From an uncultured Alphaproteobacteria bacterium (lineage in GTDB: Bacteria > Pseudomonadota > Alphaproteobacteria > Micavibrionales > Micavibrionaceae), in assembly GCA_937934135.1 (NCBI GenBank), contig CALHAW010000038.1, positions 1-38,704 of the forward strand: 38,704 nt of DNA, read 5' to 3'. The notes beneath the pieces are model-generated. The model saw nothing but the letters and a program-made list of their open reading frames with translations. It was not told the origin of the DNA and did no database searches. Of this stretch, positions 6,193-38,629 are shown one piece after another (the first letter of the stretch is position 1; each line of letters begins with the position of its first letter). Made by a program: the position numbers and the translations under genes.

Positions 6193-7584
6193 TTATGCCG
6201 CTATAGATGGTTTTGATGCGTGACGATTTAAAAAACTATTCTCATTCATGCTTCTTGGTTCATTACTAAATAGTAATTCTTCTGTTCTTGCTGATTCAGT
6301 TGCAAATTCTTCGTTACCTGATACGCGCTCCCAAATCTTATAGAGTGCATCACGCTTTTCTTTATCGTCTTCTATGGTTTCGGCAAATGAGATACATTCT
6401 GCATATTTCTTATTTTGAAGCAGGTTGTTGTACTTTTTATCCCCCTCAAGTGACTCTTCATATTTTTTCACCGCACTATCAATTCTTTTATGAATATTTT
6501 TGTATAGCTTACCTTCAGGGACTTGTTCTTTTAGTTTTTCTAAAGCTTCACCCTGTTCGTTTAACGATAAATCTTTGACCGCATTCATTGCAATCGTAAA
6601 AAATGGTTTTCTATAATCTTCTTCTTCTTTGTGTCCAAAAAAGGTCGGCTTTTCAATTAGAAAAATAGGTGCAGTTTCTAATGCGGTATCAAAGGCAAGT
6701 TTTCCTTTTAACTCTTGTATGTTTTCTAGAATCTTTGAAGAAAGTTCATCTTTAATATCACTACGATAATTTGCTAATTTATAAAGCTTAGTAGTCATAC
6801 CTAAATGCTCGCCTACTGGATGTGCCGTTACAGAATCTAATGCTATGCGTAAGAAGTTTTCTTTTTGTTCGTCTTTGAATAATTTAATTGCTTCAGTATT
6901 ATTGTCATGTTTCTCTATGATAAAAGAAAATCTTTCAGCAATAGGTACTTTTTTAATTTGTGATAGGGCTTGTTTTTTTAATGCAGGCAGTTTTTTATTA
7001 TATTCATCTCTCTTTATTAAACCAATAGTGGCTAAAAACTTTTTATTCTCAGGCAGATTAGAGATGGCGCTATGTGCCAAATCAAAAACTTGCCTTTTTA
7101 ATCCCTCTAGATGTTTTATTTGGTTACGATATTTTTTTTCAGTTATTTTACGGATGTGATCTTCACGTAGGTATCCATGAATTGTATTTCGGGTGGACCC
7201 GATGTTTATAAATAAAGTATCAAATTCTTTGATTTGTTGCTCTGGTGATAGAAACGGAATAGTTTCAATTTTTTTCTTAATACTATATTTATTTTTCTCC
7301 CATGAATGTTGGCTTCTAATCATTGCTGCAGCCTTTGAGCGTTCCTCCTTAGGTAATTTATCGATAATTATATCCAAAACATTGGTAATAGATATGCGTT
7401 CGAAATTAGTGTTATAGAGCTTATCTATATACTCTCCAAAATAAGGTTGAATATCTTCTAGTGTAAAATCTGGCTTTTTGGCCATTTCAAAATGGATTAA
7501 GGCGAGGTACTTATCTGAATTAAGAGACATAATGTTACTTTCTGTATTAACTATAGCGACATGCTTAATTTTTAAGGCTGCCAT
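6193..7584 (-). CDS. Unrecognised AT-rich helical protein with weak internal repeats
   Basis: Not recognised. The 463-residue product is strongly helical, Lys/Glu-rich, and has no signal peptide or membrane segment. Similar segments recur about 80 residues apart near 164, 243 and 327, with the pattern F-x2-A-x2-(A/S)(I/V) followed by an acidic LP/LN turn. A weaker copy lies near 61-85 (LPKEER). This suggests an alpha-solenoid built of diverged repeats. The gene is visibly more AT-rich than its neighbours and lies between mlaF (25 bases upstream) and PBP1A. Start is uncertain: ATG 7584 has AGG only three bases away, while ATG 7530 (MSLNSDKYL) begins a more natural N-terminus. Confidence 0.75.
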   Translation of the reverse strand: MAALKIKHVAIVNTESNIMSLNSDKYLALIHFEMAKKPDFTLEDIQPYFGEYIDKLYNTNFERISITNVLDIIIDKLPKEERSKAAAMIRSQHSWEKNKYSIKKKIETIPFLSPEQQIKEFDTLFINIGSTRNTIHGYLREDHIRKITEKKYRNQIKHLEGLKRQVFDLAHSAISNLPENKKFLATIGLIKRDEYNKKLPALKKQALSQIKKVPIAERFSFIIEKHDNNTEAIKLFKDEQKENFLRIALDSVTAHPVGEHLGMTTKLYKLANYRSDIKDELSSKILENIQELKGKLAFDTALETAPIFLIEKPTFFGHKEEEDYRKPFFTIAMNAVKDLSLNEQGEALEKLKEQVPEGKLYKNIHKRIDSAVKKYEESLEGDKKYNNLLQNKKYAECISFAETIEDDKEKRDALYKIWERVSGNEEFATESARTEELLFSNEPRSMNENSFLNRHASKPSIAA

Positions 7585-19688: not shown

Positions 19689-19712
19689 TAATACGCGTTG
19701 AAGCGCGTGTTA
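19689..19712. terminator. Hairpin between convergent genes
   Basis: TAATACGCG (19689-19697) pairs with CGCGTGTTA (19704-19712), nine pairs with one G-T, across a 6-base loop. It begins right after the pseudopilin stop and includes the stop of the leftward EF-hand gene, so it may terminate both. There is no strong T tract on either side. Confidence 0.5.
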
Positions 19713-20513
19713 TGAGAAGAAATCAAAGAAGGTTTCAATCACTTCGCTGACAACTTTACCAACACCTTCAATAATACGGGTGAAGGTTCCTGCTTGCGTG
19801 ACCCGGTTTCCTTCACGGATTTCGTCAGCGGTTTGATATTGAACACTAATTTCTTCAAATTTATGTTCATTAAGGGTTTTCAGCTCACCTTCATCCGTTT
19901 GCCCGTTTCCATTTGCGTCAACCCAAAGCTGTAGATTTTTCCATACATCATCATCTTCGTTAATAACACCATCTTGGTTCAGGTCGTACTGCGCAAGGTC
20001 AGCATAAGCGGCAACTTCATTATTTCCAAAAAGTTCTGATTGATCATCAATAATACCATTTCCATTACGGTCAATGGCGAGTAAGCCATCATTTGGATCG
20101 ACCCATCCTGTTTGGTTGACTTCACCATCATTATCAATATCAAACATAACGCATTCATCAACATTAATAAGCGAAACACCGTTTCCGTCTAAGTCAAAGA
20201 TAAGGGGATCACCACCTGAACCATCACCAGATCCATCGCCAGATCCATCTCCGCCATCACCAGATCCATCACCATCACCACTTGTTGTTGTGCGTGGGCA
20301 GCTATAACTGCATCCCCCTCTTGTTGTTGCGGGTCGCATACCATTTTGATCACAGAGATGATGTTTGTTTGCCCCAAGGGTTTCCCCTTTATGATTCAGA
20401 CATGCAATAGGCCTGATTTGATTTCCTATGCAGGTCTGTGCTTTTAATTCTGTATGCGCCGACAAAAATAAAGCGGCTGTTGCAACACTTGCGAGTAAAA
20501 TATTCTTTTTCAT
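19710..20513 (-). CDS. Exported EF-hand / RTX-module calcium-binding protein (copy A)
   Basis: A 267-residue secreted protein with a clear Sec signal peptide (about 1-25, MKKNILLASVATAALFLSAH). A small five-cysteine module follows (Cys at 28, then spacings of 9, 15, 13 and 3), then a Gly/Asp/Ser linker (about 75-100). The last part is a module known from the C-terminal regions of RTX adhesins and toxins, with Asp-rich loops DLDGNG, DIDNDG, DRNGNG, DLNQDG and DANGNG, each matching an EF-hand/dockerin calcium loop. The end is hydrophobic and aromatic (VIETFFDFFS). It is about 92% identical over the last ~168 residues to the neighbour at 20567-21505. Here the module stands alone with a Sec signal, not in a large RTX protein. 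Partner and role are unknown. Confidence 0.82.
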   Translation of the reverse strand: MKKNILLASVATAALFLSAHTELKAQTCIGNQIRPIACLNHKGETLGANKHHLCDQNGMRPATTRGGCSYSCPRTTTSGDGDGSGDGGDGSGDGSGDGSGGDPLIFDLDGNGVSLINVDECVMFDIDNDGEVNQTGWVDPNDGLLAIDRNGNGIIDDQSELFGNNEVAAYADLAQYDLNQDGVINEDDDVWKNLQLWVDANGNGQTDEGELKTLNEHKFEEISVQYQTADEIREGNRVTQAGTFTRIIEGVGKVVSEVIETFFDFFS

Positions 20514-20527
20514 TTCATATACCTTTT

Positions 20528-20539
20528 TATAGCGCTATA
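20528..20539. promoter_or_regulatory. 12-bp perfect palindrome upstream of EF-hand copy A
   Basis: TATAGCGCTATA is a perfect inverted repeat with no loop. It lies just upstream of the leftward Shine-Dalgarno (AAAGG) of copy A, in the 53-base gap between the two paralogues. It could be an operator or a processing site. No function can be read. Confidence 0.4.
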
Positions 20540-20566
20540 AGTTATTTTAGCTTAATAGAAAAATAG

Positions 20567-21505
20567 TTATGAGAAGAAATCAAAGAAGGTCTCAATCACT
20601 TCGCTGACAACTTTACCAACACCTTCAATAATACGGGTAAAGGTGCCTGTTTGCGTGACGCGGTTTCCTTCACGGATTTCATCAGCGGTTTGATATTGAA
20701 CACTAATTTCTTCAAATTTATGTTCATTAAGAGTTTTCAGCTCACCTTCATCCGTTTGCCCATTACTATTTGAATCAACCCATAATTTTAAATTGTCCCA
20801 AACCTTATCATCTTCGTTGATAATACCATCTTTATTTAGGTCATATTGGGCAAGATCAGCATAAGCCGCTACTTTATCATTTCCAAAAAGCTCTGACTGA
20901 TTATCAATAATACCATTTCCATTACGGTCAATGGCGAGTAAGCCATCATTTGGATCCACCCACCCCGTTTGGTTGACTTCACCATCATTATCAATATCAA
21001 ACATAACACATTCATCGGCATTAATTAATGAAACACCATTACCATCTAAATCGAAAATGAGAGGATCTCTACCTCCATCACCGTCGTTAGTATTGGTATT
21101 TCTTGCCTGGCAAGAATAACTGCATCCCCCACGTGTTGTTGATGGTCTAGAACCATTTTGATCACAGAGATGATGTTTGTTTGCCCCAAGGGTTTCCCCT
21201 TTATGATTAAGACATGTAATAGGCCTGATTTGATTTCCTATGCAAGTAGTAGTGCCAAAGCTTCCGCCATCGCCGCCACCATCGCCATCGCCGCCATCGC
21301 CATCGCCGCCACCATCGCCACCACCACCATCGCCATCGCCATCGCCACCATCGCCACCGCCATCGCCGCCAGCCCATGCGTTAGAGTGATAAATAGTGAT
21401 ATTTAGCCCTTTGTACGGATCTTTCACTTCAATTTTAATAGGAGTTGCCAAAAGAAGAGCAAGTAAGCTTGTTCCTATTAATAGTTTATGGTGTGTATTG
21501 TTCAC
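20567..21505 (-). CDS. Exported EF-hand / RTX-module calcium-binding protein (copy B)
   Basis: Paralogue of copy A, 312 residues. The N-terminus has a hydrophobic export segment (about 8-22) and a probable cleavage near NAWA (about 42-46). A low-complexity Gly/Asp linker of about 36 residues follows, longer than in copy A and placed before, not only after, the five-cysteine module (CIGNQIRPITC and onward). The EF-hand/RTX-type module and the FFDFFS end are nearly identical to copy A. The Shine-Dalgarno AAAGGGA lies in the 25-base gap from the TSR-containing pseudopilin gene, so all three leftward genes may be one transcript. Tandem duplication followed by linker change is the simplest history. 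Confidence 0.82.
   Translation of the reverse strand: MNNTHHKLLIGTSLLALLLATPIKIEVKDPYKGLNITIYHSNAWAGGDGGGDGGDGDGDGGGGDGGGDGDGGDGDGGGDGGSFGTTTCIGNQIRPITCLNHKGETLGANKHHLCDQNGSRPSTTRGGCSYSCQARNTNTNDGDGGRDPLIFDLDGNGVSLINADECVMFDIDNDGEVNQTGWVDPNDGLLAIDRNGNGIIDNQSELFGNDKVAAYADLAQYDLNKDGIINEDDKVWDNLKLWVDSNSNGQTDEGELKTLNEHKFEEISVQYQTADEIREGNRVTQTGTFTRIIEGVGKVVSEVIETFFDFFS
21263..21370. repeat. Gly/Asp-coding triplet-based microsatellite
   Basis: On the + strand this is a run of CCATCG, CCGCCATCG and CCACCATCG units; on the coding strand it encodes the Gly/Asp linker of EF-hand copy B. Units are multiples of three, so length change would alter the linker without shifting frame. A shorter relative at about 20208-20280 encodes the copy A linker. 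Confidence 0.8.
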
Positions 21506-30562: not shown

Positions 30563-30700
30563 GAGGTGGTCTCTTTTTATCGTCAATTTTCATGTAAGCA
30601 TATTGTGTAGGATAAAACGAGATATTTAAATATAGGAAAAGCCCGTTATGGCGTGATTTGATATTAGACTTACCAGTCTTTTTTCCTTTATGGTTCTTTG

Positions 30701-32527
30701 ATGAATGTTCTTCCCGTTATTGATGTTGCACCATTATCCCCTAAAGATGTTTTATCCTCTGTTTTTGGATATGACGCGTTCAGGGGTGAACAAGAACAGA
30801 TTATCGCTGATTTAATCGCAGGTAAAAGCTGCGGCGTACTAATGCCAACGGGAAGTGGAAAGTCGCTTTGTTATCAGATCCCATCAATCTGTATGGATGG
30901 AACGGGGATTATTGTCTCCCCGCTTATTGCCTTGATGAATGACCAGGTCATTGCGTTGCGGGAGGCGGGTGTAAAGGCCTCCGCGCTTCATTCAGGTCTT
31001 GATCAGGCGGATATGTGGGCGACATTGGATGATTTACGCAATGGCATGCTTGATTTGATTTATGTTGCGCCAGAGCGTTTGGTGCATGATTCATTTCTTG
31101 ATATTTTAGATCATATTAAGATCGCCCTTTTTGCGATTGATGAAGCACATTGTATTTCCCAATGGGGGCATGATTTCAGACCTGATTATCGCCAAGTCTC
31201 TCTATTAAGAACACGGTATCCCAACGTGCCGTGTATTGCCGTGACTGCAACGGCCGATAATGCAACGCGCAAAGATATTGTTGAGCGATTGTCCCTGCCA
31301 AAACTCTATGTGGCTGGATTTGATCGGCCAAATATTACCTATTACGTCTCTATTAAAGATAATCCGCGCAGTCAAGTTTTACGATTTTTAAAGGCACGTA
31401 ACGACGGTGAAAGCGGCATTGTCTATTGTTTATCGCGCCGTAAAGTTGAAGACACGGCGCAGTGGTTGACAGAAAAAGGATATAAAGCGCTACCTTACCA
31501 TGCGCGTTTAGATTCCAAAATTCGTGCAAATAATCAAGAGCGCTTTATTAAAGAAGAAGGCGTGATCATGGTCGCTACGATTGCTTTTGGCATGGGGATT
31601 GATAAACCCGATGTGCGTTTTGTAGTGCATTTGGATTTACCAAAAAATATCGAAGCTTATTACCAAGAAACAGGGCGTGCGGGGCGCGACGGTCTGCCGT
31701 CTGTTGCGTGGATGGTATATGGCCTGCAGGATTTAGCCCTACAAAGACAGATGATTGAAGGGTCAGAGTCACCCGAAGAACAAAAACGTATTGAACGACA
31801 AAAACTAACGGCGCTTTTGGGTTATTGTGAAAGCGCAACATGCCGCCGGCAAGTTTTGCTTAATTATTTTGATGATGCGGGAGACTCTTGTGGAAATTGT
31901 GATACTTGCTTGCACCCACCTGAAACATTTGATGGGTCAATTTCTGCGCAAAAATTATTATCCTGTATTTTACGCACGGGTCAAATATATGGTGGTGGGT
32001 ATGTTATTGATGTTTTGCTCGGTAAAACCAATGAACGTATTGAACGCCAAGGCCACGAAAATTTAAGCACATTTGGTATTGGTAATGAACATAACGCAAA
32101 AGAATGGCAAAGCCTTATCCGTCAACTTGTTGCCTGCGGGTTTTTATATGTGGACATGGACGCCCATGGCGCAATCAAAATTACGCATGATGGTGTTGCC
32201 TTTTTAAAATCTAAACCTATGTTGCAAATGCGTCTTGATCCTAAATCATTGGGGGAAAGCTCTGCGCGCTCTGGTACAAAAACTGATCCAGCATTGTTGT
32301 TGGAAGATGAAGCAGATCAAGCGCTCTTTATGGTGCTAAAAGCATTACGGATGGATATTGCAAAAGAAAATAATGTGCCGCCCTATGTTGTGTTTCATGA
32401 TAAAACATTGATTGAAATGGTATTGCAAAAGCCATCTACTTTAATGGCTATGAATGAAGTGCCAGGGGTTGGACGCTCTAAGCTTGAGAAATATGGACAG
32501 CTTTTTTTAAACAAGCTGCAAGGGTGA
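30701..32527 (+). CDS. recQ: ATP-dependent DNA helicase RecQ
   Basis: 3'-5' helicase for recombination and stalled-fork repair. 608 residues from ATG 30701; an in-frame TTG directly before it is ignored. The SF2 core has Walker A MPTGSGKS (48-55), DEAH (147-150) with ISQWGHDF aromatic loop, TATA motif III and QETGRAGRDG motif VI. The RQC zinc site has the cysteines of YCESATCRR and SCGNCDTC. An HRDC domain closes the protein (about 530-605). Full-length and intact. It is the last core gene before the island. Confidence 0.97.
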   Translation: MNVLPVIDVAPLSPKDVLSSVFGYDAFRGEQEQIIADLIAGKSCGVLMPTGSGKSLCYQIPSICMDGTGIIVSPLIALMNDQVIALREAGVKASALHSGLDQADMWATLDDLRNGMLDLIYVAPERLVHDSFLDILDHIKIALFAIDEAHCISQWGHDFRPDYRQVSLLRTRYPNVPCIAVTATADNATRKDIVERLSLPKLYVAGFDRPNITYYVSIKDNPRSQVLRFLKARNDGESGIVYCLSRRKVEDTAQWLTEKGYKALPYHARLDSKIRANNQERFIKEEGVIMVATIAFGMGIDKPDVRFVVHLDLPKNIEAYYQETGRAGRDGLPSVAWMVYGLQDLALQRQMIEGSESPEEQKRIERQKLTALLGYCESATCRRQVLLNYFDDAGDSCGNCDTCLHPPETFDGSISAQKLLSCILRTGQIYGGGYVIDVLLGKTNERIERQGHENLSTFGIGNEHNAKEWQSLIRQLVACGFLYVDMDAHGAIKITHDGVAFLKSKPMLQMRLDPKSLGESSARSGTKTDPALLLEDEADQALFMVLKALRMDIAKENNVPPYVVFHDKTLIEMVLQKPSTLMAMNEVPGVGRSKLEKYGQLFLNKLQG

Positions 32528-32565
32528 AGAATGGAACGCCAGAAGATCGCGGTTATAAAAAGTCT

Positions 32566-32610
32566 CAGGGTGTCTGCAGGCCTCATTTTGCCAAGAGGAG
32601 GCCGCCCCTG
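32566..32610 (+). terminator. Long hairpin after recQ
   Basis: CAGGG (32566-32570) pairs with CCCTG (32606-32610), and inside it GGCCTC (32579-32584) pairs with GAGGCC (32598-32603). An AT-rich run ending in six T follows at 32625-32630. Likely the recQ terminator, though the T tract is distant. Confidence 0.45.
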
Positions 32611-32630
32611 ACTGAATTTTAATATTTTTT

Positions 32631-32713
32631 AGAAGAAAGACTTGATTTTATGGGCCGTAAACCATTATAAAGCATTGTCTTTAAGACTATTTCTATGCGT
32701 CCCGTTCGTCTAG
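32631..32713. repeat. Left copy of tRNA-Glu promoter/5'-end direct repeat (att-like)
   Basis: This 83-base segment matches 37482-37564 at 72 of 83 positions without gaps. It includes a promoter (TTGATT 32642-32647, TTATAA 32665-32670) and, at 32699-32713, the first 15 bases of tRNA-Glu (GTCCCGTTCGTCTAG). After that the sequences diverge. It reads as the left junction of an element inserted at, or recombined with, the 5' end of the tRNA gene. Confidence 0.85.
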
Positions 32714-33000
32714 CAGAACAAAAGATTTACGACTTTAATCCACAAAGATATTACATACTTTCAAATGCAGGGGTTTTGGATCAAGAAAAAAATCAAGTCA
32801 TTATTGAAAAAGTTAAACAAAATCACGGTTGCCAAATTATTCTGAATGGCTTGCTACCAACTATAAAATACTATTTAAGACTTATCGTTTCTCTGGATGA
32901 TTTTGTAAGTATCTATTTAGATATGATAGAAAACGATACCGAATTGCAAGAAACTCACAAACTTATATGTAATGAATTTATAGAAAAGTATCTAAAATAA
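32695..33000 (+). CDS. Possible gene fragment (101 aa) starting inside the tRNA remnant
   Basis: ATG 32695 exists because the left repeat has ATGCG where the right copy has ATACG, so the first six codons (MRPVRL) come from tRNA sequence. The rest reads as real protein: RYYILSNAGV, HGCQIILNGLLPTIKYYLRL, then an acidic helical end. This is like the C-terminal end of some restriction-modification-associated proteins, from memory and with low confidence. It has no Shine-Dalgarno, so it may be the tail of a truncated gene, not a working start. The left-copy promoter could transcribe it. Confidence 0.5.
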   Translation: MRPVRLAEQKIYDFNPQRYYILSNAGVLDQEKNQVIIEKVKQNHGCQIILNGLLPTIKYYLRLIVSLDDFVSIYLDMIENDTELQETHKLICNEFIEKYLK

Positions 33001-33116
33001 CATTACAAGAAATTATAGGTGGCCTTTTTGGTGGCCCTACTTTACAAGAACAAGGCCATAGGGCAGTATAATCGCTTTACTGTTTCATAGTAGATAAAAA
33101 TATAGAGGAAAATAAC

Positions 33117-33122
33117 AAGGAG
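33117..33122 (+). promoter_or_regulatory. Shine-Dalgarno that supports a TTG start
   Basis: AAGGAG at 33117-33122 lies seven bases before TTG 33130. The nearer ATG at 33123 opens a frame that stops after four codons, so TTG is the supported start of the DUF4956 gene. A TATAAT at 33067-33072 upstream may be its -10, with a poor -35. Confidence 0.7.
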
Positions 33123-33129
33123 ATGACCG

Positions 33130-33810
33130 TTGAATGATCTTGATAAATTTGTAGAAATGGTCTCGGGCGACTCCGCCACCCTTGCTTTATTGCCAACTTC
33201 TTTTAATTTTATAATCTGCCTGATTATGGCCTTTATCGTCAGAGCATTCTACGTTAGGCGCTCTTTCTCTTTGACTGGAAAAAATCACATCGGCGCTATT
33301 TTGCCGATCCTCTCTGCTGTCGTTTTTTTGGTTATAATTGTAGTAAAATCTTCTTTGGCTTTATCTCTCGGCCTTGTCGGAGCCCTATCGATTGTACGTT
33401 TCCGCACACCCATCAAAGAACCTGAAGAGCTCGTCTATTTATTTCTCGCTATTGCTCTGGGTCTTGGTTACGGAGCGGGGCAAACATTAATCACAACCCT
33501 AATAAGCACCTTAATTCTATTCGTTGTCTATTTCTGGCTATCTAATCGTAAAGTAGGGCAAACAACAGAATATAACATGGTCATTAACTGGAATTCACCA
33601 GACATATCTTTTGAAAACCTCCTAGAATCTATAGATAGCAAGGTGGAAAGCCTCAAAATTGTACGATTAGATTACGGAGAAAAAACCAACACAGCCGTGC
33701 TCCTGATGGTCCCCAGCACAGGTGAGAATTTGGACGGCATTATTAGTACATTGCGCAGCTCAGTTGACGGCATTACATGTTCTTTCTTCGAGGCAAGGAC
33801 CAACTGGTAA
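33130..33810 (+). CDS. DUF4956 family membrane protein
   Basis: A 226-residue inner-membrane protein with about four transmembrane segments (20-42, 53-70, 74-90 and 100-137 region) and a cytoplasmic C-terminal domain of ~85 residues. The loop GALSIVRFRTPIKEPEELVYLF is the hallmark of DUF4956. Function is unknown. The family is often found beside VTC-domain and CotH-like genes, as here. The start is TTG with a strong AAGGAG. It is 26 bases from the CotH-like gene, first of a three-gene operon. Confidence 0.9.
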   Translation: MNDLDKFVEMVSGDSATLALLPTSFNFIICLIMAFIVRAFYVRRSFSLTGKNHIGAILPILSAVVFLVIIVVKSSLALSLGLVGALSIVRFRTPIKEPEELVYLFLAIALGLGYGAGQTLITTLISTLILFVVYFWLSNRKVGQTTEYNMVINWNSPDISFENLLESIDSKVESLKIVRLDYGEKTNTAVLLMVPSTGENLDGIISTLRSSVDGITCSFFEARTNW

Positions 33811-33836
33811 CAGGTGTTTGAAAACGGGAATATGGC

Positions 33837-36497
33837 ATGAACATAAAAACCCCTGAAGCCCGTACACCACTTTTGATTGCCTTATTTTTGCTGTGCATTA
33901 TCTTTGCCTTGAGCATTAATAAACAACGCATCAAAGAAGAAACCTTCACAGTAATTGACACAGTCATGACTTTAGATTGGGGTTTTTCTGGCTTAAAGGG
34001 CCTATTCGGAATCACTTCTTTTTTAGAATTCGGGGAAACGCCTACAGCTTTAGCTGTAGAGTTAGTGGCCCAATTGCCTGAGCGTGTTTTATTGCGCCTT
34101 CCAAATATCATTTACACAAAAATCACTAATTTTCAAGAACGCCCTAATATAGAACGCCTTGATATCGATATTAAATTTGAACACTATCAAACAATTCTCA
34201 AAGACCGTAAAGGCGCATTAAAAGACGACATTCTGACGCAGCCCCACGAAGTCCCCGCCAAAATTAGATATAAGGGTAAAACACATAAAGCTAAGTTACG
34301 CCTAAAGGGCGACCTCTATAACCACTGGCGATCCCCTACACGTATGAGCTTCCGTGTGTCACTAAAAGGTAATAAAACTATCAAAGGCTTTAAACGTTTT
34401 TCCCTGCATAAGCCCGCTGACCGACAATATCCTTACGACCAAATTTTTCAAAACCTTGTCGTTAAAAGCGGCAATATAGCCACAAAGCATGATTATGTTC
34501 AGATTTTTGTGAACGGCCAAAAATGGGGAATCATGAACATTGAAGAACACATGTCCAAAGAGCTATTAGAAAAGCAAGAGACCAAAAATTCTATCATTTT
34601 AAAACTTACAAATGAAAAAAATTGGTATTACCACAAAATAAAAGCACATCCCTATCAAGATTATCGCCTGTCTAATTTAGCATTTTCAACATCGGTGTAT
34701 CAAAGCAATAAATACCTAGCTGACCCCATACATCGTGCTCATTACAGCTACGTCGCTCATAAATTCGAGCGCGGCGAAGAAGATGATCTTCTGGATGTCG
34801 ATAGCTTTTCCAGCACTGCTCTAATCTCCATCATTTGGAATTCATTCCACAGTCTGGTCTCCAGTAATGCGCGTTATTATTTCAATCCCTACACCCTGAA
34901 GATAGAACCCGTCAGCGCTGATCAGAGCGTTTTTAAAGCCATCGAAAAAGAACAGTACTTATTCTCCGACCTCCATACTCTTGAAATGCCGTCTCTTTAC
35001 AAGAGAGCCCTATTTTCGGAAAAAGGGTTGACTCATTTCAGAAAAAACTTAAACACAGCCATACAAGCCGTAAAGCAAGCTCCGGAAATTTATGATTACC
35101 ATAGTAGCTTTTTCCCCAGTAACTATCCAATAGACATTGCGGTTCTTGCAAGTAACTTAGATGCGGTAAAGTCTCTAAAAACTCAAACTCCGCCAATGAG
35201 CATTAAAGCGGATCCCGTCGACCAAAAAGCAGAAAAAGACAGGCCCTCAATAACTCCACCAACACCAGAACAGGCTGCTGACCTTTTAGATCATATCCAT
35301 GTCCGTCACTATGATGATGGCCGGCTACACGTTTTTAATCTTCTAAACGTTCCTGTCCAACTCAAAGAAATTCTTTATGATAAAAAACCACTCGAGAGCG
35401 TGGAACCAGTAATTATCCCCCCGTACACAGAAAACAATGGCCTGCTCGTTATTCCCACAAATCAGATTGGTCTCCATGATAAAAAATTTACGCTAGTGAC
35501 ATCTTACGGCGGACATCAGCGTACAGCCCGTAATGAAGCCACTTTGGTAACAGCTGTATCAAACCCGTTAGCAGCAGCCTCAATCACCCAACCTGCTTTC
35601 GTTAAAAAAGATAAAAACACAACCTATGTTCCCGCTGGACAATGGAACGTGAAAACGCCCCTCGTCATTGATGGAAGCTTAACCCTTAAACCAGGAGCAA
35701 TATTAAGCTTTGCACCTGAGGCATATTTAATTGTAAAAGGTGCCTTAATCGCTAAAGGTACCGCTCAACTTCCTATAGTACTCAAGCCATCACAAAAGCA
35801 CTGGAAGGGTCTCTATGTCTTAGAAGCGCAAAAACCCTCCATCTTGAGCCATGTAACATTCACAAATACAAATGCTCTGCAAGACGGCCTTCTGACACTC
35901 ACAGGAGGCGTCACATTTTATAAATCTCCAGTAACTCTTGAACAGATTCAAATTATAGGCACACAAGCTGAGGATGCCCTTAATATTGTGAAGTCTGATT
36001 TTCTTATCAAAGATAGCTTTATTGCAAATACCCGTTCTGACGCTTTTGACAGCGATTTTTCAACAGGAAAAATTGTATCGACAATATTAGAAAACATTGG
36101 CGGTGATGCTCTCGATTTTTCAGGCGGTCAGGCCCATATCGAAAACGTCACCATTACAGACGTGCATGATAAATCCATCTCAGCAGGTGAACAAAGCAAC
36201 TTGACCGTAAAAAACAGTATCTTTAAGCGTGTCGGAGTAGGGATAGCCTCCAAAGATGGCAGCGTAGTCGCAGCCAGCAGCGTAACAGTACTAGATTATG
36301 CATTACATGCCGCAATGACCTACGTTAAAAAAGATATGTTCGGCCCCTCCGCTATGACAATTTCAGGCCTTACGCATAATGGTAGTACGCCGTTTTCACG
36401 GCAAAAGAAAACCGAACTATCGGTTGATGGAAAATGGATCCGTAGTAAAAAAATAGACGTCAAAGAGCTTTACAATAACGGAGTCATGCGTAAATGA
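33837..36497 (+). CDS. CotH-like protein with C-terminal parallel beta-helix
   Basis: An 886-residue exported or membrane-anchored protein. Residues 10-28 are an N-terminal membrane segment. The region about 140-430 resembles CotH (atypical protein kinase-fold) proteins: KLRLKGDLYNHW, SFRVSLKG, GFKRFSLHKPADRQ, the IFVNGQKWGIMNIEEHMSKELLE motif, and a degenerate late motif SADQS where CotH kinases have WD-x-D. A Pro-rich linker near 465-480 follows. From about 605 to 840 there are short beta-strand repeats (LTLKPGAILSF, GDALDFSGGQAHIENVTITD) typical of a right-handed beta-helix, often carbohydrate-binding or surface. Kinase activity cannot be assumed. It overlaps the VTC gene by four bases (ATGA). 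Confidence 0.8.
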   Translation: MNIKTPEARTPLLIALFLLCIIFALSINKQRIKEETFTVIDTVMTLDWGFSGLKGLFGITSFLEFGETPTALAVELVAQLPERVLLRLPNIIYTKITNFQERPNIERLDIDIKFEHYQTILKDRKGALKDDILTQPHEVPAKIRYKGKTHKAKLRLKGDLYNHWRSPTRMSFRVSLKGNKTIKGFKRFSLHKPADRQYPYDQIFQNLVVKSGNIATKHDYVQIFVNGQKWGIMNIEEHMSKELLEKQETKNSIILKLTNEKNWYYHKIKAHPYQDYRLSNLAFSTSVYQSNKYLADPIHRAHYSYVAHKFERGEEDDLLDVDSFSSTALISIIWNSFHSLVSSNARYYFNPYTLKIEPVSADQSVFKAIEKEQYLFSDLHTLEMPSLYKRALFSEKGLTHFRKNLNTAIQAVKQAPEIYDYHSSFFPSNYPIDIAVLASNLDAVKSLKTQTPPMSIKADPVDQKAEKDRPSITPPTPEQAADLLDHIHVRHYDDGRLHVFNLLNVPVQLKEILYDKKPLESVEPVIIPPYTENNGLLVIPTNQIGLHDKKFTLVTSYGGHQRTARNEATLVTAVSNPLAAASITQPAFVKKDKNTTYVPAGQWNVKTPLVIDGSLTLKPGAILSFAPEAYLIVKGALIAKGTAQLPIVLKPSQKHWKGLYVLEAQKPSILSHVTFTNTNALQDGLLTLTGGVTFYKSPVTLEQIQIIGTQAEDALNIVKSDFLIKDSFIANTRSDAFDSDFSTGKIVSTILENIGGDALDFSGGQAHIENVTITDVHDKSISAGEQSNLTVKNSIFKRVGVGIASKDGSVVAASSVTVLDYALHAAMTYVKKDMFGPSAMTISGLTHNGSTPFSRQKKTELSVDGKWIRSKKIDVKELYNNGVMRK

Positions 36498-37207
36498 TCG
36501 AAACAACCCCTAACAATGATGATCCTGACTTCAGATATGAAATTAAATTCGTCCTAGATCAAGCAGAACTCTCAAAAGCGCTCTCATGGCTCTACGGTTT
36601 CACCAGTGCATATGTAGCTCATCCTTCTCGTTCAGTAAACTCAGTGTATTTCGATGATCCTGCTTATTCCGCTGTGCGTGATAATTTAGCAGGTGTCTCA
36701 GATCGTCAAAAAATTCGCCTGCGCTGGTATCACAATGAAGAAAGAGAAAAAATTCATGGCGCACGCCTTGAAGTGAAGCACCGTACAGGACGATTGGGAC
36801 ATAAAGATAAATATCCCCTTTCAACGTTTGAGAAAGACCTACTGCAAACTGAGTATCGTGATTTATTTTTGTCTCTCCACCCCCATCTTGGCGGAGATGA
36901 TGTCTTCCCCCTTGAAAATCATTTATCTCCAGCGTTGCATGTTTCTTACCAACGTGAATATTATGAAGGACAAAACGGAATACGCGTCACGTTCGATCGG
37001 TCTATTAATTTTTATGCTCCCCTAGCACACTCCCGTCCTTTCAGTGACACTGCTGTTTCATACGCCTATACCATCATGGAAATTAAATTTGATCCTACAC
37101 AAAAAGATAACGTCTCAAAATCTTTACGCCGACTAAACTTAACGCCAAAACGTCACTCCAAATACTTAGTTGGGTTATCTGCTTTCGGGCAAGCTATCTA
37201 TTATTGA
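36494..37207 (+). CDS. VTC/TTM-type polyphosphate polymerase domain protein
   Basis: A 237-residue single-domain member of the VTC branch of the triphosphate tunnel metalloenzymes. Tunnel residues are visible in order: Glu16 and Lys18 (RYEIKF), YFD, KIRLRWY with two Arg, RLEVKHR, and a late IMEIKFD Glu, with a C-terminal basic KRHSKY. In yeast Vtc4 this domain makes polyphosphate from ATP; bacterial stand-alone members are annotated as polyphosphate polymerases but most are untested. Here it is translationally coupled to the CotH-like gene and preceded by DUF4956, suggesting that the three work together at the membrane. No polyP kinase or phosphatase is nearby. Confidence 0.88.
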   Translation: MIETTPNNDDPDFRYEIKFVLDQAELSKALSWLYGFTSAYVAHPSRSVNSVYFDDPAYSAVRDNLAGVSDRQKIRLRWYHNEEREKIHGARLEVKHRTGRLGHKDKYPLSTFEKDLLQTEYRDLFLSLHPHLGGDDVFPLENHLSPALHVSYQREYYEGQNGIRVTFDRSINFYAPLAHSRPFSDTAVSYAYTIMEIKFDPTQKDNVSKSLRRLNLTPKRHSKYLVGLSAFGQAIYY

Positions 37208-37481
37208 GTATTGCTGTTGATTTTTTTATACCATAGAGATTCTTTGCACTTATTGTATAAACGTCACCGCGCTTTTCTAAACCGTCTGGTTTTTTCACGT
37301 CTTCCATACTCCAATGTGTACCAAATGGAAGATTTCGTCTTTCTATACCAGTAAGTTATTTATTCTAAATAGAATGGTGGTGTAAGTAGTCATTTCCTAA
37401 CTATTCTCTACACAATTTACAAAACCCTTAGAAAATTAAGATGAGCCCGTTTTATCCAATATTATATTTTTCTTTTTTTTT
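37208..37481. other. AT-rich intergenic region at the right end of the island
   Basis: No convincing gene on either strand. It holds a small inverted repeat (ATTCTA, two bases, TAGAAT, at about 37361-37374) and a long T run near 37467-37481. It ends at the right copy of the direct repeat. No integrase fragment was seen. Confidence 0.5.
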
Positions 37482-37564
37482 ATAAGAAACACTTGATTTT
37501 ATAAGCAATTAACTATTATAAAGCATTGTCTTTAAGATCATTTCTATACGTCCCGTTCGTCTAG
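37482..37564. repeat. Right copy of tRNA-Glu promoter/5'-end direct repeat (att-like)
   Basis: Partner of 32631-32713; 72 of 83 positions match, no gaps. It runs through the tRNA promoter and into the first 15 bases of the intact tRNA. Most mismatches cluster in the promoter spacer, while the -35, -10 and tRNA bases are kept, which suggests selection on both copies or recent exchange. Confidence 0.85.
37493..37521 (+). promoter_or_regulatory. Promoter of tRNA-Glu
   Basis: TTGATT (37493-37498), 17-base spacer, TTATAA (37516-37521); shifted by one, TATAAA matches 5 of 6. It would start transcription about 20 bases before the tRNA. The same elements are intact in the left repeat. Confidence 0.6.
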
Positions 37565-37625
37565 GGGTCTAGGACACCGCCCTTTCACGGCGGCAACACG
37601 GGTTCAAATCCCGTACGGGACGCCA
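37550..37625 (+). tRNA. tRNA-Glu (anticodon TTC), CCA encoded
   Basis: Acceptor stem GTCCCGT (37550-37556) pairs with ACGGGAC (37615-37621). Anticodon stem CCGCC/GGCGG (37577-37581, 37589-37593) encloses loop CTTTCAC with anticodon TTC at 37584-37586. T arm ACGGG-TTCAAAT-CCCGT spans 37598-37614. Discriminator G is followed by encoded CCA (37623-37625). It is intact and carries its own promoter. Confidence 0.96.
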
Positions 37626-37695
37626 ATTATTTCAATGACTTAGCCTGTATTGCCAATAAATTTAGTGCTGTTTCTAGTGTGTATAGGCTATTAAT

Positions 37696-37862
37696 TTATA
37701 GAAGTTTTAATTGAAAGTAACCAGACTGCTCACTAACACTTGCATTCATAGCATCTCCTGCCATTCCCCAAAGTGATCCCATTGTAAGCGCACTGCTCCG
37801 TGGAGAAATTTCAAAAGTGTGGCTTGGCTCATTTCTTGGTTTTTCTTATCAGTGTTACTCAT
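37696..37862 (-). pseudogene. Small ORF (about 55 aa) broken by a one-base frameshift
   Basis: ATG 37862 (MSNTDKK) has AGGGG upstream. In its own frame the product stops after 38 residues (TGA 37746-37748). One base added to the five-A run near the seventh codon gives a continuous frame to TAA 37696-37698, reading KPRNEPSHTFEISPRSSALT and on to YFQLKLL, which looks like the natural protein. The family is not recognised. It may be a remnant next to the island, or a sequencing error in a homopolymer. Confidence 0.35.
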
Positions 37863-37990
37863 TTTACTTTTTCCCCTGTAATTTAGTCTTTTTACTCAAA
37901 AACAATATTTATTATTGCTGTGGGTATGATTTTTATAGACTTTAGGTTAAAAAATAGTTAATAATCTTAAAAAAACTAGGTGTAGGCATA

Positions 37991-38629
37991 ATGATTACAG
38001 TTCAACAACTCCGAATGGCACGCGCAGCCCTTAATATCTCACAGTCTGTAGTTGCAGAAGCAATTGGCCTAAATCCTATGGCTATAAGCGATATTGAGAA
38101 TGAAAAAACTAAGAATCCGAAAGCTTCAACATTATCTGCTCTTCAAGGATTTTATGAGAATTGCGGCTTAGAATTTACAGAGGCAGGTGGGGTTCGCCCC
38201 AATAATGCTGAAATTAAAATCTATAAAGGCGACGAAGGCTTTCGTAATTTTTATAATGATATTTATAGCACATCTAAAGATGGTAGCGGGGATATAGCTA
38301 TTCAAAATGGGTTGCCTGATTATTTAATTAAGCATTTAGGTTCTGATTACTACGATATGCATTCAAAAAGGATGGTTAAAATTAGCCCTAATGTTCGTGT
38401 CCTTATCAAAGAAGGTGATAAAAGTTTAATCGGCTCTAACTTTGCAACATATAAAACTGTTCCCGCTGAACACTTTAATGACCAAACAATTTATATTTAT
38501 GGTGACCAGACTGGCTTTATTACATTCGGTGATGAAGTCGAAGTTCTTGTTTTAGATAACCCTGAAATTACGCGTTCATTGCGTGTTTCTTTTGATGTGA
38601 TTTGGGAAAATGCAAAAGACATTCACTAA
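37991..38629 (+). CDS. XRE-type helix-turn-helix regulator with ligand-domain-like C-terminus
   Basis: A 212-residue protein. Residues 4-55 are an HTH_3/XRE DNA-binding domain (QLRMARAALNISQSVVAEAIGL, then ISDIENEK). The C-terminal ~150 residues are unlike a peptidase or cupin. The end, PAEHFNDQTIYIYGDQTGFITFGD followed by ITRSLRVSFDVIWENAK, resembles the C-terminal effector domain of TrmB-type sugar regulators, by eye. It lies 366 bases after the tRNA. It probably controls itself or the overlapping gene downstream. Start ATG with a weak AGG four bases away. Confidence 0.8.
   Translation: MITVQQLRMARAALNISQSVVAEAIGLNPMAISDIENEKTKNPKASTLSALQGFYENCGLEFTEAGGVRPNNAEIKIYKGDEGFRNFYNDIYSTSKDGSGDIAIQNGLPDYLIKHLGSDYYDMHSKRMVKISPNVRVLIKEGDKSLIGSNFATYKTVPAEHFNDQTIYIYGDQTGFITFGDEVEVLVLDNPEITRSLRVSFDVIWENAKDIH

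Follow-up and report, generated by a model that had tools for sequence, protein, structure and literature searches.

Background

Homology-facilitated illegitimate recombination combines one homologous end with one illegitimate end, as set out in the part of PMC3240628 cited here. In islands that target tRNA genes, a partial tRNA copy has been ascribed to duplication of the attachment site, and the example in the cited section of PMC9897764 has 44-bp direct repeats. Genes for CotH, polyphosphate polymerase and DUF4956 proteins are described, in the portion of PMC7112168 used here, as an accessory set beside pel clusters in streptococci, clostridia and bifidobacteria.

The locus described here combines two copies of a tRNA-Glu leader, a truncated gene at the joint, a short integrase-type remnant and an accessory cargo. 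The window, that is, the whole stretch of DNA analysed, is the complete contig C38 (38,704 bases) of a genome of 1.72 Mb in 43 contigs that is 97% complete, and the whole locus, left joint included, is known from this single MAG contig. In a limited literature search we found no paper that treats Micavibrionales, a genomic island and tRNA together.

Results

Layout of the locus

The features of the locus are:

30698..32527, plus strand: recQ helicase gene, left flank (Pfam RQC, DEAD, Helicase_C, RecQ_Zn_bind, HRDC)
32617..32713, plus strand: left copy, with tRNA-Glu promoter, leader and tRNA bases 1-15, a presumed severed stub (83/97 identical to 37468-37564)
32642-32647, plus strand: presumed -35 box TTGATT of the left copy (conservation)
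32665-32670, plus strand: presumed -10 box TTATAA of the left copy (conservation)
32714..33000, plus strand: putative C-terminal remnant of a SacI-family-type restriction endonuclease gene (protein similarity)
33130..33810, plus strand: DUF4956 protein gene (Pfam PF16316, 1.3e-18)
33837..36497, plus strand: CotH kinase-like gene (Pfam PF08757, 1.1e-08), with a sub-threshold beta-helix match too
36494..37207, plus strand: VTC-domain gene, polyphosphate polymerase type (Pfam PF09359, 3.1e-25)
37258..37380, minus strand: remnant with upstream DNA and about 17 first codons of an integrase-like gene, with CCACCA (DNA match to genome G124)
37468..37564, plus strand: right copy, with the promoter and leader of the intact tRNA-Glu and its bases 1-15 (alignment with the left copy)
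37493-37498 and 37516-37521, plus strand: presumed -35 and -10 boxes of the right copy (conservation)
37550..37625, plus strand: intact tRNA-Glu(TTC) (ARAGORN; Rfam RF00005, 60.2 bits)
37626..37643, plus strand: attachment-arm-like ATTATTTCAATGACTTAG, directly behind tRNA-Glu and shared with other loci
37991..38629, plus strand: HTH regulator gene, GC 36% (Pfam HTH_3, 2.3e-08)

The closest recQ matches among named genomes are from alphaproteobacterial MAGs, and one of the next ones is labelled Micavibrio. GC content is 42.6% in the window up to recQ, 41-42% in the cargo genes and 35% in the DNA after 37,626. Elsewhere in the window, positions 1-432 hold direct repeats with a spacing of 18 bases, in which copies 54 bases apart are nearly identical; an ORF at 6193-7584 has a GC content of 33%, far below that of its neighbours; and two adjoining ORFs at 19709-21505 share two stretches of DNA, 300 and 139 bases long, at 90% identity.

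Two tRNA-Glu leaders

Positions 32617-32713 and 37468-37564 align without gaps over 97 bp, with 83/97 positions identical. At the tRNA end of the alignment the match is unbroken for 16 bases, the longest exact match between the two copies is 23 bases, and upstream of the alignment identity is at chance (12/60). TTGATT, TTATAA, the 17-base distance between them, the 22-base block TTATAAAGCATTGTCTTTAAGA and tRNA nucleotides 1-15 are identical in both copies, and the differences fall mostly in the promoter spacer (6/13 positions), the last leader bases and the upstream part. The names of the promoter boxes are our reading from conservation, and neither leader is among the 18 sites listed by a simple promoter scan. 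The initial annotation had reported the same 83-base segment in both places. Its coordinates hold, but the copies mismatch at 11 of those 83 bases, and an exact 83-base duplication is therefore rejected. The intact tRNA that it placed at the right end was recovered by ARAGORN as tRNA-Glu(TTC) at 37550-37625, and is the only intact one in the window. A whole-genome search with the repeat listed these two places and no third (E = 3e-26), and the 15-mer GTCCCGTTCGTCTAG, at <=1 mismatch, also has two occurrences in the genome; the repeat is thus no tRNA leader that recurs at many loci of this genome.

The left leader is 84% identical to the right one over 70 bases and about as close (85%) to the leader of another species, the congener G007; it is less like the leaders of other congeners. 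Over 28 relatives, which are not independent of one another, the left leader is nearer in 17 and the right leader in 7, among them G005 of the same genus, with 4 ties. In a leader tree of 11 rows, which has no supported fork, the left leader is closest to that of G007 (88% over 74 columns). The closeness to G007 and the count over the relatives suggest that the left copy is the severed native gene.

The left joint

An open frame at 32695-33000 (101 residues) starts within the tRNA leader, and the tRNA part ends in codon 7. Residues 7-98 of this frame resemble the C-terminal end of a 706-aa cytosine-methyltransferase fusion (39%, 2e-11), in which the matched domain has no Pfam name. The frame also aligns with a 223-aa ORF of genome G038 (88 columns, 32%), in which 130 residues precede the point matching the joint. 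By three comparisons the similarity starts at residue 7, 8 or 10 of the frame. Judged by these alignments, the tRNA stub is fused at 32713/32714 to the interior of a restriction-enzyme gene that lacks its front. The putative assignment to the SacI family is indirect, via the G038 ORF, which matches proteins annotated as SacI-family endonucleases (4/6 plasmid records). Neither the frame nor the G038 ORF has a Pfam family above cut-off, and the frame has no match in PDB or viral contigs; its weak matches to Pfam 'Yuri gagarin' and PADLOC Cmr5 were not used. Because the left end lies inside a truncated gene, the end of a site-specific integrase event is not expected at that place.

Cargo between the copies

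The VTC gene was found in only 3/142 genomes of the order, counting the genome itself, G001 of the same genus and G023 of the same family, which bears out the initial view that the segment between the copies is accessory. DNA matches to all three cargo genes are present in both G001 and G023, and the VTC protein has no match in plasmids. In G001 about 1.3 kb, with a glutamine-amidotransferase-type gene in it, separates the cargo set from tRNA-Tyr, and the DUF4956 end of the set points towards tRNA-Tyr, whereas in the window it is the VTC end that has the tRNA-Tyr-type remnant beside it. The 13.8-kb G023 contig with the cargo set holds no tRNA. Given the opposite orientation in G001 and the tRNA-free G023 contig, a link between the cargo operon and tRNA-Tyr islands is a hint only.

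The integrase-type remnant at the right edge

On the minus strand, the remnant at 37258-37380 matches the junction of tRNA-Tyr and a DUF6538 gene in G124 (79% DNA identity over 135 columns; E = 3e-28 in the search of the genome itself). About 50 of the 135 columns are coding (about 17 codons), followed by about 20 unrelated codons to a stop, and CCACCA is the sole part of tRNA-Tyr left. The remnant lies 87 bp from the right leader copy. The G124 gene stands directly behind tRNA-Tyr and is cut off by the end of its contig, and Pfam shows only PF20172 (DUF6538), which we take to be the N-terminal part of tyrosine integrases; a limited literature search found no paper joining DUF6538 with integrase. 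The remnant peptide has no Pfam match, and no catalytic domain of a tyrosine integrase was seen in it or in the truncated G124 gene. The initial statement that no integrase is visible thus stands for an intact integrase between the copies and fails for this short integrase-like remnant, which gives some backing to loss of the integrase, one of the options first proposed.

The tRNA-Tyr gene of this genome is intact and on another contig. Behind it (locus L148, 1631-4086) are a DUF2924 gene and a serine recombinase, an element that differs from that of the remnant, and the gene on its other side is presumably rlmB. Since this tRNA-Tyr is intact with a different element behind it, the remnant was brought here from some other place or a different genome. 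Plasmids gave no match to the remnant peptide, and phages, plasmids and viral contigs none to the G124 gene. In G026, G018 and G079 the remnant peptide matched only weakly (E 0.01-0.02), and these matches were dropped; the ORFs at the G026 place are, by eye, not integrase-like, and a tRNA scan of the G018 and G079 places found none.

The intact tRNA-Glu and the DNA behind it

The 3' end of tRNA-Glu (25 bases, <=3 mismatches) has a single occurrence in the genome, and in the last 8.7 kb of the window Rfam gave, beyond the tRNA, three matches far below gathering scores. With <=4 mismatches, ATTATTTCAATGACTTAG stands directly 3' of tRNA-Glu in 9/45 other rows and in three families of the order, where the 45 rows count one place twice (G116 C15, as L151 and L169), miss the second G116 copy, its tRNA end having been called one base off, and include G005 and G109 rows identical for >70 bases. 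This identity behind tRNA-Glu in G005 and G109 (L004 and L163), which belong to different genera, points to recent transfer or contamination. Several of the rows sharing ATTATTTCAATGACTTAG also have TACGTAACTTATACGTAATATACG-like sequence further on.

Separate tRNA-Glu 3' fragments were found in several genomes, for example in G051 (46 bases, 20 kb away); such a 3' fragment stands near a Phage_integrase gene in both G105 and G096. The shared 3' arm and the separate 3' fragments suggest that the tRNA-Glu 3' end is an ordinary island target in the order. The DNA after 37,626 probably belongs to a further island, of the ordinary 3'-end type, that continues past the end of the contig. Its HTH protein has no match in phages, and the leader, tRNA and 3'-arm patterns have none in viral contigs, where the leader 22-mer was searched as an exact match. 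In G035 (L124, 2079-3596) a serine recombinase gene on the opposite strand ends inside tRNA-Glu, the tRNA supplying the end of the frame; G096 has a similar gene (L170, 4230-6137), with a scaffold gap there.

tRNA-Glu loci in relatives

At E 0.001 or better, the tRNA-Glu query matched 118/142 genomes of the order, the genome itself included, and 24 gave no match. Four of the family genomes without a match at this threshold are 97-100% complete (G004, G010, G015, G020); their tRNA-Glu may have been lost at assembly breaks or be too different. Up to the best five candidates per genome were scored in the survey of the other 141 genomes (up to the best 14 in an earlier search), so that weaker second copies could be missed, and among the matches listed two were 5'-type pieces reaching into the tRNA, in G096 and G019. 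In G096 the seeming split after nucleotide 28 of tRNA-Glu is a scaffold gap of N. G019 has one intact copy and a second locus with about 32 bases of the tRNA-Glu 5' part and 3 leader bases matched; there (L167, 3453-3500) the fragment is followed by an apparently inverted anticodon-arm piece. G116, which belongs to the genus of G019, carries two genes for tRNA-Glu whose leaders differ; the second gene (L168, 8294-8366) has 73 instead of 76 bases, is shortened near the acceptor end and has an attachment-like arm behind it. Two tRNA-Glu genes are also present in G106 (ARAGORN) and G022 (BLAST). Second tRNA-Glu copies and their decay occur in this family.

Among eight congener tRNA-Glu loci, those of G001 and G008 agree in gene order and no two of the remaining six do; the tRNA-Glu body is identical in congeners G005, G006, G007 and G009. 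In G007, recQ is followed by three genes and then by tRNA-Glu, 4.8 kb downstream of recQ. The middle of these genes was not found in the genome studied here, and the last, by our reading an acetyl-CoA synthetase gene, is on another contig. In G009 a cupin gene adjoins tRNA-Glu. The G007 contig (L003) ends one base after the tRNA-Glu 3' end, and L020 and L027 end at its last base, a pattern to be expected of an end with more than one copy in the genome.

Of 80 recQ loci fetched, 16 were examined, and in none of these is recQ followed directly by tRNA-Glu (L049 ends inside recQ). The check initially proposed, relatives with this order and a single repeat copy, thus gave no case in these 16, and no empty site was seen there or at the tRNA-Glu loci of the eight congeners. 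No relative with both leader copies but no cargo was seen.

Discussion

We consider this locus to be, more likely than not, an island of composite origin, now decayed, at a tRNA-Glu hot spot, in which the left copy is probably the severed 5' end of the original tRNA-Glu. An illegitimate event at tRNA base 15 would have linked the original gene to the inside of a gene for a restriction enzyme carried by island DNA, and the cell would now depend on another, complete tRNA-Glu that lies 4.85 kb downstream and has a promoter of its own. This is supported by the unrelated debris at the two edges, a restriction-enzyme remnant on the left and a tRNA-Tyr-type remnant on the right. The single tRNA-Glu 3' end, the place of tRNA-Glu downstream of recQ in G007, and the second copies and their decay in the family also speak for it. 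Against it stand a leader tree without a supported fork, the 7 relatives nearer to the right leader, and stub promoter boxes that are unchanged, more than a stub without use would call for. Incoming DNA from a congener may have entered by homologous recombination on the right, at the tRNA-Glu that it carried, and by an illegitimate join on the left. Alternatively, tRNA-Glu may first have been duplicated, and a later deletion may have cut the left copy. Duplication and deletion would explain the data equally well as one-step homology-facilitated illegitimate recombination, and none of the relatives examined shows the pre-event arrangement.

The stub promoter, whose presumed boxes are unchanged, may now drive the cargo operon. 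No terminator-like site was found on the plus strand in 32500-38000, by a scan that finds no more sites than in shuffled DNA. With this terminator result and a promoter scan that lists neither leader, the captured promoter is a weak proposal.

The initial annotation had taken the two copies as the attachment ends of one element, which is at odds with a joint inside a gene, a right remnant of the tRNA-Tyr type and leaders that are 84% identical. An integrative element aimed at the 5' end of tRNA-Glu, with nucleotides 1-15 as a 15-base core, a replacement promoter and an integrase lost or supplied in trans, would account for the exact identity of tRNA bases 1-15 with its abrupt end, the intact tRNA at one end, the accessory cargo and the integrase-type remnant 87 bp from the right copy, and the single tRNA 3' end fits reconstitution. 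We nevertheless think such an element unlikely, given a left end within a truncated gene, not a likely element end, a remnant whose relative is behind tRNA-Tyr, a leader 22-mer found exactly in no viral contig and, among the matches listed for 141 other genomes, only G096 (a gap) and G019 (3 leader bases). The fuller proposal, in which the element recombines at the first 15 bases of tRNA-Glu, brings a replacement promoter and 5' end, leaves the old promoter driving the cargo and has its integrase in trans or lost, is quite unlikely. Integration dependent on a tRNA, as in some mycobacteriophages, would break the host tRNA-Glu at a short core and bring in a whole replacement tRNA-Glu with its promoter, and the locus does hold one broken copy as well as one complete copy whose leader is different. 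A search of the 97% complete genome did not find the 3' part of the host gene (nucleotides 16-76) that should stand at the far end, and no integrase for the site was found, so that we regard this as improbable, the more cautiously as the far end lies off the contig. These two readings are less favoured because each is without a defining feature.

The two leaders may instead be paralogous and have no link to island movement, the operon having been inserted between them separately. Some relatives do have two tRNA-Glu genes (G116, G106, G022), but the break in the left copy coincides exactly with a joint to debris of mobile type, which leaves this explanation a slim chance. It is highly unlikely that two tRNA-Glu loci, of this strain or of mixed strains, were misjoined in the metagenome bin. 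The genome is in 43 contigs, and contigs of relatives end at or one base past tRNA-Glu (G007; L020, L027), but the longest exact match between the copies is 23 bases, which is short for an assembly join, and the left joint continues into sequence with other homology.

If the locus is a decayed composite island, it offers a readable case of an essential tRNA gene severed and replaced at an island hot spot, with a tRNA promoter remaining in a position in which cargo genes could take it over. If an element targeting the 5' end were the true explanation, its target site would be one missed by island searches built on tRNA 3' repeats.

An element of the latter kind would have attachment sites outside its genes at both ends, and here the left end is in a truncated gene. 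The window shares with the tRNA-targeted islands, as presented in the cited section of PMC9897764, a partial and a complete tRNA copy flanking accessory DNA. It differs from them in that the 3' end is unrepeated, its partial copy consisting of the promoter with the 5' end. The distribution of its cargo is accessory, as in islands of the 3' type; a repeat of the tRNA 3' end was not found at both ends, the downstream island running off the contig, and there is no intact integrase between the copies, the contig ending downstream. With tRNA-dependent lysogeny, as far as the part of PMC10865867 cited here describes it, the window shares a broken host tRNA and a complete tRNA of the same isotype with its own promoter. 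In contrast to that system it has no host 3' remnant, matching integrase or phage structural gene; the 3' remnant was not found at the other end, where the right flank ends with the contig. The cargo groups the same three protein kinds as the pel-associated set in the cited portion of PMC7112168, but the genes between the copies have no pel-like Pfam match and the phylum is different. A further candidate likeness is homology-facilitated illegitimate recombination (PMC3240628). One illegitimate joint is present at the gene-internal position 32713/32714, both ends would stem from the same event, and the homologous anchor common to donor and recipient would be the tRNA-Glu body.
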